Shown: piece after piece, positions 10,318-14,958 of the stretch | Numbering within the stretch: position 1 is the stretch's first letter | Layout: each line of letters opens with the position of its first letter | Origin: an uncultured Agathobacter sp. | Lineage (GTDB): Bacteria; Bacillota; Clostridia; Lachnospirales; Lachnospiraceae | Length of the DNA stretch: 64,000 nucleotides | Direction of reading: 5' to 3' | Assembly (NCBI GenBank): GCA_934365945.1 | Contig: CAKRNE010000010.1 | Location: 21,449-85,448 of the forward strand | Position numbers and translations under genes: made by a program | The notes under the pieces: model-generated | Databases searched by the model: none | The model's input: only the letters and a program-made list of their open reading frames with translations | What the model was told of the DNA's origin: nothing

Positions 10318-11079
10318 TTAAATAAAATTGTGTATAAACGACGCCCTGTGTATTGGTGAAGGTCCTATCTCTTTTAGCGCCTTGATATGCTCTGCCGATC
10401 CATAGCCCTTGTTTGAAGCAAATCCATAGCCTGGGTATATGTTATCGTACTCAACCATCATCCTATCCCTTGTGACCTTGGCCACAATACTGGCTGCCCC
10501 TATTGATATGCTTTTTGCATCTCCCTTTATGATCGGGACCTGCTTTATATCCACTCCGGGGATTGTAACTGCATCGTTGAGTGTCAAATCCGGTGCCGGA
10601 TCAAGCTTTCCAATTGCCTGTCTCATCGCCTCATATGTAGCCTGCAGTATATTTATCTCGTCTATCCGCTCGTGCGATGCCATGCCTATTCCAACAGAAA
10701 CCGCCTTTTCCATTATGACATCGTAAAGCTCATCACGCTTTGCAGCCGTAAGCTTCTTGGAATCATTGATATATAAAATATCACAGTCCTTTGGCAGAAT
10801 CACCGCGCATGCGATCACCGGACCTGCAAGCGGCCCGCGTCCCACCTCGTCTATTCCGCAGATATGGGCATATGATGCGTACTCGCGCTCATATTTCTTG
10901 AGAGCTTCTGTGCGGATAAGCTCCTTCTCGTACTTATCCAGACGCTTTTTGGCGCTGTCTACAAGCTTAATCACTCCGCCTCTGTCATCTGAGCCATATG
11001 CTTCGATGAAGTGTCCAAGCTGTGAATCTGTGGTGTTTTTCAGTTGTTCCTTAATATCGCCTATTTTTTCTGCTGACAT
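10318..11079 (-). CDS. rnhB: Ribonuclease HII
   Basis: Cleaves RNA of RNA-DNA hybrids and single ribonucleotides in DNA. The catalytic domain starts near residue 70 with ICGIDEVGRGPLAGPV (first two acidic residues); INDSKKL gives the third acidic residue region, and ASIVAKVTRDRMM and YGSAEHIKAL follow. The ~70-residue N-terminal charged extension resembles that of Bacillus RnhB. At 253 residues the length is normal for Firmicutes. AGGACA precedes the ATG. It follows rbgA in the conserved rplS-lepB-rbgA-rnhB order, separated here by a repeat-rich 125-base gap. Confidence 0.93.
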   Translation of the reverse strand: MSAEKIGDIKEQLKNTTDSQLGHFIEAYGSDDRGGVIKLVDSAKKRLDKYEKELIRTEALKKYEREYASYAHICGIDEVGRGPLAGPVIACAVILPKDCDILYINDSKKLTAAKRDELYDVIMEKAVSVGIGMASHERIDEINILQATYEAMRQAIGKLDPAPDLTLNDAVTIPGVDIKQVPIIKGDAKSISIGAASIVAKVTRDRMMVEYDNIYPGYGFASNKGYGSAEHIKALKEIGPSPIHRASFIHNFI

Positions 11080-11204: not shown

Positions 11205-12044
11205 CTACGGTCTCTCAAGGGTGATATTGCCAAGCTTGCCACTTCTGAAATCATCTATGATGAGCGCAGCCGCCTTGCTGTAATCAGGCTCTCCGCCCTT
11301 TGAAAGACATTTTCTGTTGACAGCTACAGCACTTATAAGATCTATGATATCGTTTTCCTCGCTCACCTCGTATCTTTGTGCCAAAAGCCCCGGATACTCT
11401 GCTTTTAGGAACTTTACAAGCTCCACGGCAAGCTCATCAACATTTAAAATCTCATCCTTTATCGAGCCGATAAGCGCAAGCCTTAGTCCCACTGACTGAT
11501 CCTCAAATTTCGGCCACAGTATACCCGGAGTATCGAGGAGCTCAACACTTTTATTGAGCCTGATCCACTGCTTACCCTTTGTCACACCAGGCTTGTTTCC
11601 GGTCTTGGCGCAGGCTTTTCCGGCGTATGAGTTGATAAATGTGGACTTTCCGACGTTTGGAATACCAACCACCATAGCTCTGACCGGTCTGTTTTTGATG
11701 CCACGCTTTCTGTCTCTTTCAATCTTTTCCTTACATGCCTCCATCACGATATCTGTGATGCTCTTCATGCCGGACTTGCTTCTTGCATCAAGACTGAATA
11801 CAAAAAAACCCTTTTCCTTGAAAAATGCACTCCACTCCCTGGTGCGCTCCCTGTCTGCCAGATCCGCCTTGTTCATCAGAATGAGCCTGTATTTATTTTT
11901 CCCAAGCTCATCAATGTCCGGATTACGGCTGGAAAGCGGAATTCTTGCATCCACAAGCTCTATAACCAGATCTATTAGTTTAATGTCCTCCTGCATCTGA
12001 CGCTTTGCCTTTGTCATATGCCCAGGGTACCACTGAAAATTCAT
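11205..12044 (-). CDS. rbgA: Ribosome biogenesis GTPase RbgA (YlqF)
   Basis: Circularly permuted GTPase needed for late assembly of the 50S subunit. Motifs appear in permuted order: G4 NKADL (about residue 57), G1 GIPNVGKST (about 127), G3 DTPGILWP (about 172). The N-terminal FQWYPGHMTKAKRQM matches the family signature, and the C-terminal ~90 residues are the helical RNA-binding (ANTAR-like) part. At 279 residues it is full length. Neighbours lepB, rplS and rnhB match the conserved Firmicutes cluster. Confidence 0.94.
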   Translation of the reverse strand: MNFQWYPGHMTKAKRQMQEDIKLIDLVIELVDARIPLSSRNPDIDELGKNKYRLILMNKADLADRERTREWSAFFKEKGFFVFSLDARSKSGMKSITDIVMEACKEKIERDRKRGIKNRPVRAMVVGIPNVGKSTFINSYAGKACAKTGNKPGVTKGKQWIRLNKSVELLDTPGILWPKFEDQSVGLRLALIGSIKDEILNVDELAVELVKFLKAEYPGLLAQRYEVSEENDIIDLISAVAVNRKCLSKGGEPDYSKAAALIIDDFRSGKLGNITLERP

Positions 12045-12084: not shown

Positions 12085-12672
12085 CTACTTGATGGTTCCA
12101 AAGCTTCCAAAGCCTGAAAATCTAAACCATGCCTTGCCGATGATATAGTCTCTCTTTACATTGCCAATATTGGCATAGCGGCTGTCCTCACTGTTGTTAC
12201 GATTGTCTCCAAGCACAAAATACTCATCTTTTTCAAGCTTAATAGCATCAGAAGCAATGCCTGCATCCTCCATAGAAGCGACATCTGTGGATTCCTTATA
12301 GAGCTCATCATTCACATACAGTGCGCCGTCCTTTATCTGAACAGTATCTCCCGGCACTGCTACCACTCTCCTGACATAATAATGAGATTTCTTATTGCCA
12401 TTTGGAAGAAATACAATAACATCCCCCTGCTTGGGTTTTGATATGATGTATGCAAATTTATTCACAAGAATATCATCATCATTTTCAAGTGTCTGCTCCA
12501 TTGCCTGACCTACAACATTTGTACGGATACCGAAAAATGATACCAGCACATATGCCAGACCTATTACCACCACAATTTCAACTATCCATGACAGCACTTC
12601 CCTGACCAATGGCAGATTAATCTTTTTTCTCTGTCTTCTAAAATTAAGTCCTGCTCTTCTTCTACCCATCAT
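12085..12672 (-). CDS. lepB: Signal peptidase I homologue with catalytic Ser and Lys replaced
   Basis: A type I signal peptidase (S26) by fold: one N-terminal membrane segment (about residues 27-47), then the catalytic boxes. Box B reads VVGQAMEQTL where active enzymes have the pattern GxSMxPT, so the nucleophile is Ala57 (codon GCA). Box D reads YVRRVVAVPGD where the general base lysine is expected, giving Arg101 (codon AGG). Box E, GDNRNNSEDSR, is intact. The protein is 195 residues and in frame throughout, so it looks maintained and not decayed. The start is one of two tandem ATGs (12672 or 12669) after GAGG. It lies in the rplS-lepB-rbgA-rnhB order, after the rplS terminator. Likely a membrane pseudoprotease; a role in chaperoning or binding precursors is speculation. 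Confidence 0.85.
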   Translation of the reverse strand: MMGRRRAGLNFRRQRKKINLPLVREVLSWIVEIVVVIGLAYVLVSFFGIRTNVVGQAMEQTLENDDDILVNKFAYIISKPKQGDVIVFLPNGNKKSHYYVRRVVAVPGDTVQIKDGALYVNDELYKESTDVASMEDAGIASDAIKLEKDEYFVLGDNRNNSEDSRYANIGNVKRDYIIGKAWFRFSGFGSFGTIK

Positions 12673-12742
12673 CAAACCTCATTTACCATAAAAATCATGT
12701 ATTTTCTAATTATATATGGTTTTATAAATTCATGCAAGAGTT

Positions 12743-12780
12743 ACAAAAAACCACCTCGTTACGATTTCTCGACGAAGTGG
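12743..12780 (-). terminator. Rho-independent terminator of rplS
   Basis: A 9-bp stem (12751-12759 with 12772-12780, one wobble pair) starts 18 bases after the rplS stop and is followed by TTTTTTG on the minus strand. Partial readthrough would be needed to express lepB from the rplS promoter. Confidence 0.85.
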
Positions 12781-12798
12781 TCTCTTTCGCGTAAAATA

Positions 12799-13152
12799 TT
12801 ATTTTACAAGCTCTTTAACCTTAGCAGCTTTTCCGATACGGTCTCTTAAGTAGTAAAGCTTAGCACGACGTACTTTACCTTTACGTACAATCTCAACCTT
12901 CTCTACGTTTGGTGAGTGGAGTGGCCATGTCTTCTCAACACCTACGCCGTTAGAAAGCTTTCTAACAGTAAATGTTGTACGGTTTGATCCGTTCTGCTTT
13001 TTGATAACTGTTCCCTCAAATACCTGGATACGCTCACGGTTACCCTCTTTGATTTTTCCGTGTACCTTTACAGTATCTCCTACAGAAAACTCAGGTACCT
13101 CAGCCTTTAACTGCTCGTTCTCGATGCTCTTAATAATTTCACTTGCGTTCAT
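12799..13152 (-). CDS. rplS: 50S ribosomal protein L19
   Basis: A ribosomal protein at the 30S-50S interface, 117 residues, full length. Typical segments are [31 protein letters not shown] and the C-terminal [20 protein letters not shown]. An AGGAGGT ribosome site lies 7 bases before the ATG. It has its own promoter (13239-13267) and terminator, so it can be made independently of trmD and rimM upstream. Confidence 0.97.
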
Positions 13153-13317: not shown

Positions 13318-14958
13318 TCACCTAACAGTAATATTATTATTAGTCATCCAGTATACAGATGACTTTGAAAAATGCAGTCCCATACGCTCCTGCAGCCTCA
13401 TAGATGCCTCATTGCCCACGATTATCTGTCCATATGGTATCCAGCCATTTTCCAGCGCCCTGTTAAAGGCATATGTTTCAAGTGCTGTGGCAAGCTTTTG
13501 ATGCCTGTACTGTGGCTTTACATAAAGCATGCCTATGCTGCCCTCCTCATGGATTCCTATAATTCCTGCGAGGGCATTATCGGCATTATCAGCAGTATTA
13601 TCACACAAAAAAGCCCCGTAGACAGCCCCTGCCTCTATCCTTTCTATGATATAGTCCGGATCATCAAAGCCAGGATACATTGGCGCAGCCTCCTGTATAT
13701 CGAGCGCATCCAGCTTTCTTATAACCAAGCCATTTGGCATCGGCTTTCCATCCGGTCTGTACAGTCCACTTACTGAGAGCTTTTCTTTGTTTGTATACAC
13801 CGCCTGTCTGCACTCTACAGTCTCCTTAAAGCCATTTGCCTCAAAAAGCCCAACATACCTTTGCTGGTGAAGCACTATGCCATTTGTAATCTGCTCTGTA
13901 ATGGTTGCCGGAATATGTTGACTGCTATGTTTATCGACCAGCCCAGTTGCATCTTCCGCTGTCAAATCCAAAAGCTTCGACTCACCCTCATCCGGTCTGG
14001 TATGAAAGCACACCTTTGAAACCATATCTCGAAGCAGATATTCCCCATCTGCCTCAAAAATTATCTCTGCATAGCCCCTGTTTATAAGCTCTATCATATC
14101 AATATGAAGCAGCTTATTTTTCATAAGAAACTCTCTGCAGTTGTCAAGTCTTTTAAACTCGGCATACAAATCCGGTCTGCGTTTTCTTGTTCGCTCAATA
14201 GATTTTTCAATGCGCCATGCATCAATCTTTTTCTGATTGCCCGACATGAGTACTTCAGGCACCTTTTTGTCATGCCACTCCACAGGACGTGAATACTGAG
14301 GATATTCAAGCAGATTGCCATGAAACGACTCTGTCTCTGCCGAAATATCATTGTGCAATACCCCCGGAACCAGACGTGAAATTGCATCTATCATCACCAT
14401 TGATGGCAGCTCTCCGCCTGTTAGAACATAGTCACCGATAGAAACATAATCTGTTACTGTCTCCTCCAGCACGCGCTCGTCAATACCTTCATAGTGTCCA
14501 CATAGAAAAATGAGGTCATCACACTTTGCAAATTCCGCTGCCATATGCTGGTTGAACACGCGGCCCTGTGGCGTAACGTAAATTAGACGCGCATTGTGAT
14601 TTTTTATTTCTTCTGCTGTATTTTTATATGATATATTTTCATATGATGTATTTTCATATAATATATTTTCACCGGCGATATTTTTCTCGGAATTATCACC
14701 TGAGTGGATCTGATTACATTTATTGATCTGACTCACCACACTGCTCACAGCCTGATACACTGGCTCTGCCTGCATAAGCATTCCCGCGCCGCCACCATAT
14801 GTGTAATCATCAACCTTATTGTGCTTATTGTGCGCAAAATCCCTGATATTTACAGTATTGAGTGATATAATATTCTGTTTTAAAGCCCTGCCTGTGATAC
14901 TCTCTGACAGTCCCTGTTCTATCATCTGCGGGAATAAAGTCAGCACATGAAATCTCAT
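13318..14958 (-). CDS. trmD: tRNA (guanine37-N1)-methyltransferase fused to GNAT acetyltransferase
   Basis: A 546-residue fusion. Residues 1 to about 280 are TrmD, which methylates G37 of tRNA to prevent frameshifting: FHVLTLFPQM start, YGGGAGM, the knot motifs TPQGRVFNQ, LCGHYEGIDERV and SIGDYVLTGGELP. Between helix EPVYQAV and RLIYVTPQG there is a ~35-residue insertion (80-118) containing five pentapeptide repeats. From about residue 285 the protein continues without a break into a GNAT-type domain (GSIGMLYVKPQYRHQKLATALE is the acetyl-CoA loop, about residue 480). Normal TrmD is about 240 residues. AGGAGATA precedes the ATG. Downstream of rimM as usual. The acetyltransferase substrate is unknown. 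Confidence 0.9.
   Translation of the reverse strand: MRFHVLTLFPQMIEQGLSESITGRALKQNIISLNTVNIRDFAHNKHNKVDDYTYGGGAGMLMQAEPVYQAVSSVVSQINKCNQIHSGDNSEKNIAGENILYENTSYENISYKNTAEEIKNHNARLIYVTPQGRVFNQHMAAEFAKCDDLIFLCGHYEGIDERVLEETVTDYVSIGDYVLTGGELPSMVMIDAISRLVPGVLHNDISAETESFHGNLLEYPQYSRPVEWHDKKVPEVLMSGNQKKIDAWRIEKSIERTRKRRPDLYAEFKRLDNCREFLMKNKLLHIDMIELINRGYAEIIFEADGEYLLRDMVSKVCFHTRPDEGESKLLDLTAEDATGLVDKHSSQHIPATITEQITNGIVLHQQRYVGLFEANGFKETVECRQAVYTNKEKLSVSGLYRPDGKPMPNGLVIRKLDALDIQEAAPMYPGFDDPDYIIERIEAGAVYGAFLCDNTADNADNALAGIIGIHEEGSIGMLYVKPQYRHQKLATALETYAFNRALENGWIPYGQIIVGNEASMRLQERMGLHFSKSSVYWMTNNNITVR
14611..14685 (-). repeat. Five in-frame 15-bp repeats inside trmD
   Basis: Five consecutive 15-base units, core GAAAATATATCATAT on the minus strand, encode KNIAG, ENILY, ENTSY, ENISY and KNTAE. 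Period 15 keeps the frame, so copy-number change would alter protein length without frameshift. Confidence 0.85.

Follow-up and report, generated by a model that had tools for sequence, protein, structure and literature searches.

SipA of Streptococcus pyogenes and SpsA of Staphylococcus aureus are the closest described systems to the gene considered here. SipA has no catalytic Ser or Lys, retains a peptide-binding cleft and is needed for pilus polymerisation (PMC4049620), and SpsA is missing two conserved catalytic residues and is described as dispensable (PMC12445088). The gene in question, lepB1, adjoins rplS in a stretch of 64,000 nucleotides from contig CAKRNE010000010.1 of an uncultured Agathobacter sp., referred to below as the window. 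An earlier note on this DNA had proposed that lepB1 encodes a signal peptidase I homologue with both catalytic residues replaced, maintained as a pseudoprotease. This is supported, in that the replacements are shared by orthologues rather than being specific to a strain, and a paralogue with both catalytic residues is found in relatives. The sequence comparisons argue that lepB1 is a real, selected pseudo-signal-peptidase; the reading favoured here, with a probability of roughly 0.55, is that its product would be a maintained non-cleaving, peptide-binding protein, with cleavage left to the paralogue.

Residue states are given below as two-letter labels (A/R, S/K, S/R and so on), which denote the residue at the box B nucleophile followed by that at the box D general base. 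The gene and its active-site positions are located as follows.

12085..12672, (-): lepB1, putative pseudo-signal peptidase I (S26A fold), 194-195 amino acids; from the open reading frame, profile matches and a structure model
12502..12504, (-): Ala56 codon GCA, box B nucleophile site; Ala in 31/32 rows of the A/R clade
12370..12372, (-): Arg100 codon AGG, box D general-base site; Arg in 32/32 rows of the clade
12178..12210, (-): box E GDNRNNSEDSR, whole; from the translation and clade alignment

The frame is open throughout, giving 194 amino acids from the ATG at 12669 or 195 from that at 12672, and its product matches both Peptidase_S26 (PF10502; 1.8e-40 in a Pfam profile search) and the NCBIfam model for signal peptidase I (TIGR02227; 1.3e-40, 138.9 bits against a cut-off of 47). 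The N-terminal anchor helix and the beta-fold of signal peptidases are both present. In alignments with solved signal peptidases, A56 (GQAM) occupies the position of the nucleophile Ser and R100 (YYVRR) that of the general-base Lys, just as the earlier note had read them; the box B Ser and box D Lys of an S26A enzyme are absent, and the box E pattern GDNxxxSxDSR is present, in agreement with the description of this box as intact and the gene as in frame. In the alignment, one solved chain, 4wvg (SpsB), likewise has an Ala in place of the nucleophile. The possibility had been raised that another Ser and Lys occupy the active site, but when the A/R group is aligned with S/K orthologues, no column of Ser, Thr, Cys, Lys or His has become newly fixed. 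The loss of catalysis through Ser-to-Ala and Lys-to-Arg replacement is as certain as sequence allows. Despite this, the NCBIfam equivalog model rates the dead protein far above its cut-off, such that automatic annotation will tend toward an enzyme, and near-identical proteins (e.g. P0020 and P0029) are already named signal peptidase I in their sources. In these gut bacteria, the true signal peptidase may therefore be sought in the wrong gene.

The distribution of the A/R state was studied in the GTDB genus of G001, the genome containing the nearest relative of lepB1 (L001, 97% identical). Of the 62 genomes in this sample, 61 match the query protein and 60 have an orthologue with more than 50% identity; among these 60, 30 are A/R (including G014, at 90% identity), 27 are S/K and 3 are S/R. 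Sharing of the pair by half of the orthologues rules out strain mutation or sequencing error as its source; the S/K orthologues that do exist are found in sister lineages. The best 120 of 7501 homologous proteins include 116 with A/R and single cases of A/K, T/R, G/R and S/R; being the nearest matches, and mostly near-identical, they represent a biased sample. The best match at each of 46 public-genome loci is A/R in 4 cases, S/R in 1, G/K in 2, S/K in 38 and partial in 1, and the 32 additional S26 rows at these loci are all S/K. A wider survey of the family screened 397 genomes with an S/K query, 187 of which matched at E <= 1e-48. The 109 newly fetched loci that were read comprise 104 S/K, two A/R (G001 again, and G384), two S/R (G268 and G230) and one A/K (G119); rplS and rbgA are both found in the fetched stretch at 102 of the 109, and one of them at the other 7.

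The codons at the two replaced sites have not remained static. In 31 A/R rows (the codon table excludes one S/K row with an unread base), Ala56 is encoded by GCA 12 times, GCC 8, GCG 7 and GCT 4, and Arg100 by CGC 7 times, AGA, CGG and CGA 6 times each, and AGG and CGT 3 times each. All four Ala and all six Arg codons are hence in use, representing silent turnover while the residues stay. The ratio of nonsynonymous to synonymous divergence (dN/dS, NG86 method) is 0.042-0.112 in the A/R clade (9 of 11 pairs computable, one pair including G004) and 0.039-0.137 among the S/K orthologues (8 of 11 pairs), synonymous divergence being saturated in the remaining pairs of both groups. The full range of codons at both sites, together with dN/dS values within the range of the active orthologues, implies that Ala and Arg are held by selection.

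Two phylogenies were used to study the history of the locus. The first was built from 133 rows after removal of both catalytic columns, and leaves out L046 and the duplicates L001-L005. It unites 31 A/R rows with a single S/R row, G004, in one group (SH-like approximate likelihood ratio test 87, not starred), with the A/R row L031 found elsewhere, beside an S/K row (98, starred); its B1/B2 labels are positional, and wrong for a few rows (L022, L041 and L042). The second, of 188 rows, omits most rows for lepB2 (a second S26 gene approximately 1.4 kb downstream, after rbgA, in many Lachnospiraceae), along with L041, L045, L164 and the S/K rows of the family survey below 49% identity. It needs 8 changes to account for the S/K label, at least 7 of which are forced by starred branches. 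The A/R state is found in three separate lineages, namely the Agathobacter clade, G384 and L031, while the other lineages that have lost part of the dyad are L035 with L039 (G/K), G043 with G009, G268 and G230 (each S/R), and G119 (A/K). As the trees are unrooted, they do not by themselves give the direction of change; that the residues were lost is inferred from the prevalence of S/K across the family. It would appear that lepB1 has lost one or both catalytic residues in about 8 lineages, three times as A/R, and that the Agathobacter gene is descended in place from S/K orthologues. Single-residue cases known from one genome could be assembly errors, which are an unlikely explanation for the A/R doubles.

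Further support for a retained function comes from the predicted peptide-binding groove. The residues of the S1-S3 groove of the Escherichia coli enzyme were taken from a published model (PMC2259416) and mapped by counting along the boxes, giving 12 columns (residues 50-54, 57, 61, 67, 86 and 97-99 of lepB1). Rows were thinned to less than 90% identity, leaving 29 from the A/R group and 24 S/K, with 101 comparable ectodomain columns as background. The groove columns have a mean entropy of 0.26 bits for the A/R group against 0.34 for S/K, while the background columns loosen by 0.31 (p = 0.0027); for the S1 columns the values are 0.05 and 0.30 bits respectively (p = 0.0003).

A candidate for the cleaving enzyme is present in most of these genomes. 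The search for another Ser/Lys signal peptidase that the earlier note had suggested, made in relatives, finds one in 27 of the 30 A/R genomes of the genus, and all 46 paralogue rows fetched from the genus are S/K. The other three comprise G018 and G030, with unfetched matches, and G020, a 1.5 Mb assembly in which the only match is the A/R gene itself. An S/K copy is also kept in other genomes with dyad losses, namely G006 (with L031), G007, G008, G384, G268, G230, G119, G043 and G009. In G001 there are two S26 matches only, lepB1 and L049, hence L049 would process all Sec pre-proteins there if the assembly is complete. L049 is likewise a signal peptidase I by TIGR02227, with 36% identity to lepB1, but differs in having a full dyad ('PSGSMENTI...KYIKRVIGLPG'), another locus and no basic tail motif; it adjoins an open reading frame that resembles a cation transporter, judged by eye with no family search. 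Paralogues of this type are presumed to be working signal peptidases. The gene lepB2 was rejected as an obligatory stand-in, being found beside lepB1 in 2 of the 30 A/R genomes of the genus (G013 and G031), although contig ends may hide some. Within the window, tblastn with lepB1 and L049 over the 64 kb finds no S26 gene besides lepB1, and hence no lepB2. A separate observation concerns G384, which holds, alongside an independent A/R lepB1, a third S26-like gene (L285) whose aligned dyad positions carry Asp and Gly, the pair found in S. pyogenes SipA.

Under the favoured reading, a membrane-anchored signal peptidase fold would have lost hydrolysis while keeping the signal-peptide side of its groove, box E and the basic N-terminal tail. 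Ala and Arg are chemically conservative replacements, which should preserve the shape and positive charge of the groove while removing catalysis. The protein may bind signal peptides, or hydrophobic stretches within exported proteins, and leave them uncut, either simply holding them or serving as a partner that shields them or sets the moment of their release to the true signal peptidase; cutting would be performed by a paralogue of the '(V/I)P(T/S)GSMENTI...KRVIGLPG' type, such as L049. It is in this sense that we infer a role for lepB1 in secretion. If so, it offers a way to test whether bacterial protein export includes a step of holding or timing.

Several observations weigh against this reading. 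Ser is found with Arg in G004, which is nested in the A/R clade, and in P0115, and P0037, P0047 and P0053 each differ at one site (A/K, T/R and G/R), hence fixation of the pair is not absolute; these rare variants may be genuine or may be read errors. Averaged over the whole protein, column entropy is 0.96 bits in the A/R group and 0.71 in the S/K group, implying that constraint has loosened somewhere. The S3 columns by themselves give a less marked result (0.40 bits in A/R, 0.44 in S/K; p = 0.023), and column 51 varies more in A/R than in S/K rows (1.65 against 0.50 bits); the initial test used 10 columns, without the S3 columns 50 and 51, and adding both weakened the result while leaving its sign unchanged. 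Five alignable prime-side columns loosen as the background does (0.63 against 0.16 bits, p = 0.75), such that the signal-peptide side has been spared the loosening and the mature-protein side, as far as it can be aligned, has not. All of these groove values depend on columns placed by counting from the published E. coli model, and neither columns nor species are independent. Finally, for SipA, the precedent, binding of peptide or pilin was undetected in vitro, according to PMC4049620.

A bolder form of the favoured reading can be put forward tentatively: that in Lachnospiraceae the signal peptidase linked to rplS has repeatedly given rise to a non-cleaving signal-peptide receptor, on three occasions through the same Ser-to-Ala and Lys-to-Arg changes, and that in Agathobacter this receptor has become a fixed component of export, expressed from a promoter of its own and holding signal peptides before the paralogue cuts. 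Ala and Arg would then have been selected for function, and would not be mere losses. The repeated appearance of the same dead pair at one housekeeping locus, beside intact sister species, represents a natural experiment on the non-cutting functions of signal peptidases.

An alternative explanation locates the function outside the groove, in the N-terminal part of the protein.

12616..12669, (-): basic cytosolic N-terminal tail MGRRRAGLNFRRQRKKIN; L8, F10, R14 and N18 invariant in the clade
12532..12615, (-): residues 19-46, one N-terminal helix, presumed to anchor the protein in the membrane; helix from the model, membrane character from the sequence

The basic tail could contact the ribosome, the signal recognition particle or SecA, or some other partner, with the ectodomain serving mainly as a fold. 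L8, F10, R14 and N18 are unchanged in 32/32 A/R-clade rows, and the mean entropy of tail columns 2-18 (0.86 bits) is similar to that of the ectodomain (0.85) and below that of the anchor helix (1.34). The motif, about RRRxGLNFxRRRKKxN, is mostly common to the S/K orthologues, while none is seen in the N-terminal tails of the S/K paralogues compared, and lepB1 is found near ffh, rpsP, rimM, trmD, rplS and rbgA. Such a role nevertheless leaves unexplained both the escape of the groove columns from the loosening of the ectodomain and the retention of Ala and Arg, and is unlikely.

The surroundings of lepB1 bear on its expression, and thereby on a second alternative.

12799..13152, (-): rplS, ribosomal protein L19; from a profile search
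11205..12044, (-): rbgA/ylqF, ribosome biogenesis GTPase; TIGR03596, 1e-109
10318..11079, (-): rnhB, RNase HII; from a profile search, with no lepB2 between rbgA and rnhB here
12745..12786, (-): terminator-like hairpin and T-run between rplS and lepB1; -21.9 kcal/mol, z -4.2
12709..12737, (-): promoter-like TTGCAT-17-TATAAT just upstream of lepB1; 9/12

Neighbouring genes identified with Pfam and NCBIfam encode L19, YlqF/RbgA, RNase HII, TrmD, RimM, S16, Ffh and a LysR regulator, in keeping with the ribosomal cluster described in the earlier note, to which the hairpin adds detail. The TrmD gene (13318-14958, (-)) is a single frame of 546 amino acids with a C-terminal GNAT domain (tRNA_m1G_MT and Acetyltransf_1), and a similar frame of 547 amino acids is found in L001.

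A consensus promoter and terminator scan called neither the hairpin nor the promoter-like site before lepB1, the latter being below threshold; the site was found by separate scans with other rules, which require TTG. Of 31 A/R stretches tried, including the window, rplS was located in 27, and 26 of these have a similar hairpin; of 27 S/K stretches tried, 12 yielded rplS and 9 of the 12 have one, as do 3/3 S/R stretches. As the hairpin separates the two genes, lepB1 is probably not mainly on the rplS transcript, and as hairpins are found in the A/R and S/K groups alike, it probably begins its own transcript in both. A TTG-type promoter-like site lies upstream in 15/30 A/R and 1/27 S/K stretches, against 2.5 and 1.1 expected from shuffles that preserve base composition only, and a cruder scan gives 14/30 and 2/27; the species are related and of unequal base composition (GC 0.37 in A/R, 0.43 in S/K), hence a Fisher value computed on these counts should not be taken as a fair probability. 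The enrichment may mark a change of expression accompanying the loss of catalysis.

A separate promoter-like site would allow an independent level of lepB1, as would suit a regulatory partner that forms a heteromer with the S/K paralogue, or competes with it for substrates, and so tunes signal-peptide cleavage. Every A/R genome with a fetched paralogue does have an S/K copy (27/30 in the genus, along with G006 and G384), but the same type of paralogue is found in relatives with an S/K lepB1, such that there is no specific co-loss or co-gain, and this arrangement seems rather improbable.

That lepB1 remains a protease using unusual residues is highly improbable. K94, S95 and H96, beside box D, do not vary within the A/R clade, but are about equally conserved in the S/K orthologues (27/27, 26/27 and 26/26 readable rows), and the lack of any newly fixed candidate column argues against a replacement. 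Arg in place of the general-base Lys is expected to be inactive from E. coli mutant data. A decaying pseudogene or neutral relic, despite the greater entropy of the A/R group, is scarcely credible and was rejected given the synonymous turnover at the conserved Ala and Arg codons, the low dN/dS, the conservation of box E and groove, and the absence of internal stops from any listed genus match.

Comparison with known systems sets lepB1 apart in several respects. SipA (PDB 4n31 and 4k8w) is the best VIA-align match of the lepB1 model and, going by its description (PMC4049620), shares the S26A fold and the replacement of both dyad residues. By the same source, the sites are occupied by D48 and G85 (Asp/Gly), as opposed to A56 and R100, and D48 and K83 are neither conserved in the homologues of other species nor needed, whereas the Ala/Arg pair of lepB1 is held clade-wide. 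SipA also lies in a pilus cluster, while lepB1 is in the rplS-rbgA locus, with no sortase or pilin among the flanking genes searched; retention of a cleft as in SipA is seen for lepB1 as conservation of the groove columns only. SpsA, as described in PMC12445088, resembles lepB1 in being an inactive homologue alongside a working signal peptidase of the same genome. The S/K LepB1 orthologues, such as L005/L087 of Roseburia inulinivorans, are of the same family (65% identity) and have a similar tail motif, but possess the dyad, with S1 columns less conserved, and the remaining ectodomain more conserved, than in the A/R group. A literature search turned up no description of the A/R protein in titles or abstract openings. 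Pseudo-signal-peptidases are thus already known from SipA and SpsA, and the novelty here lies in the location at a housekeeping locus and in an A/R pair that is both fixed and recurrent.
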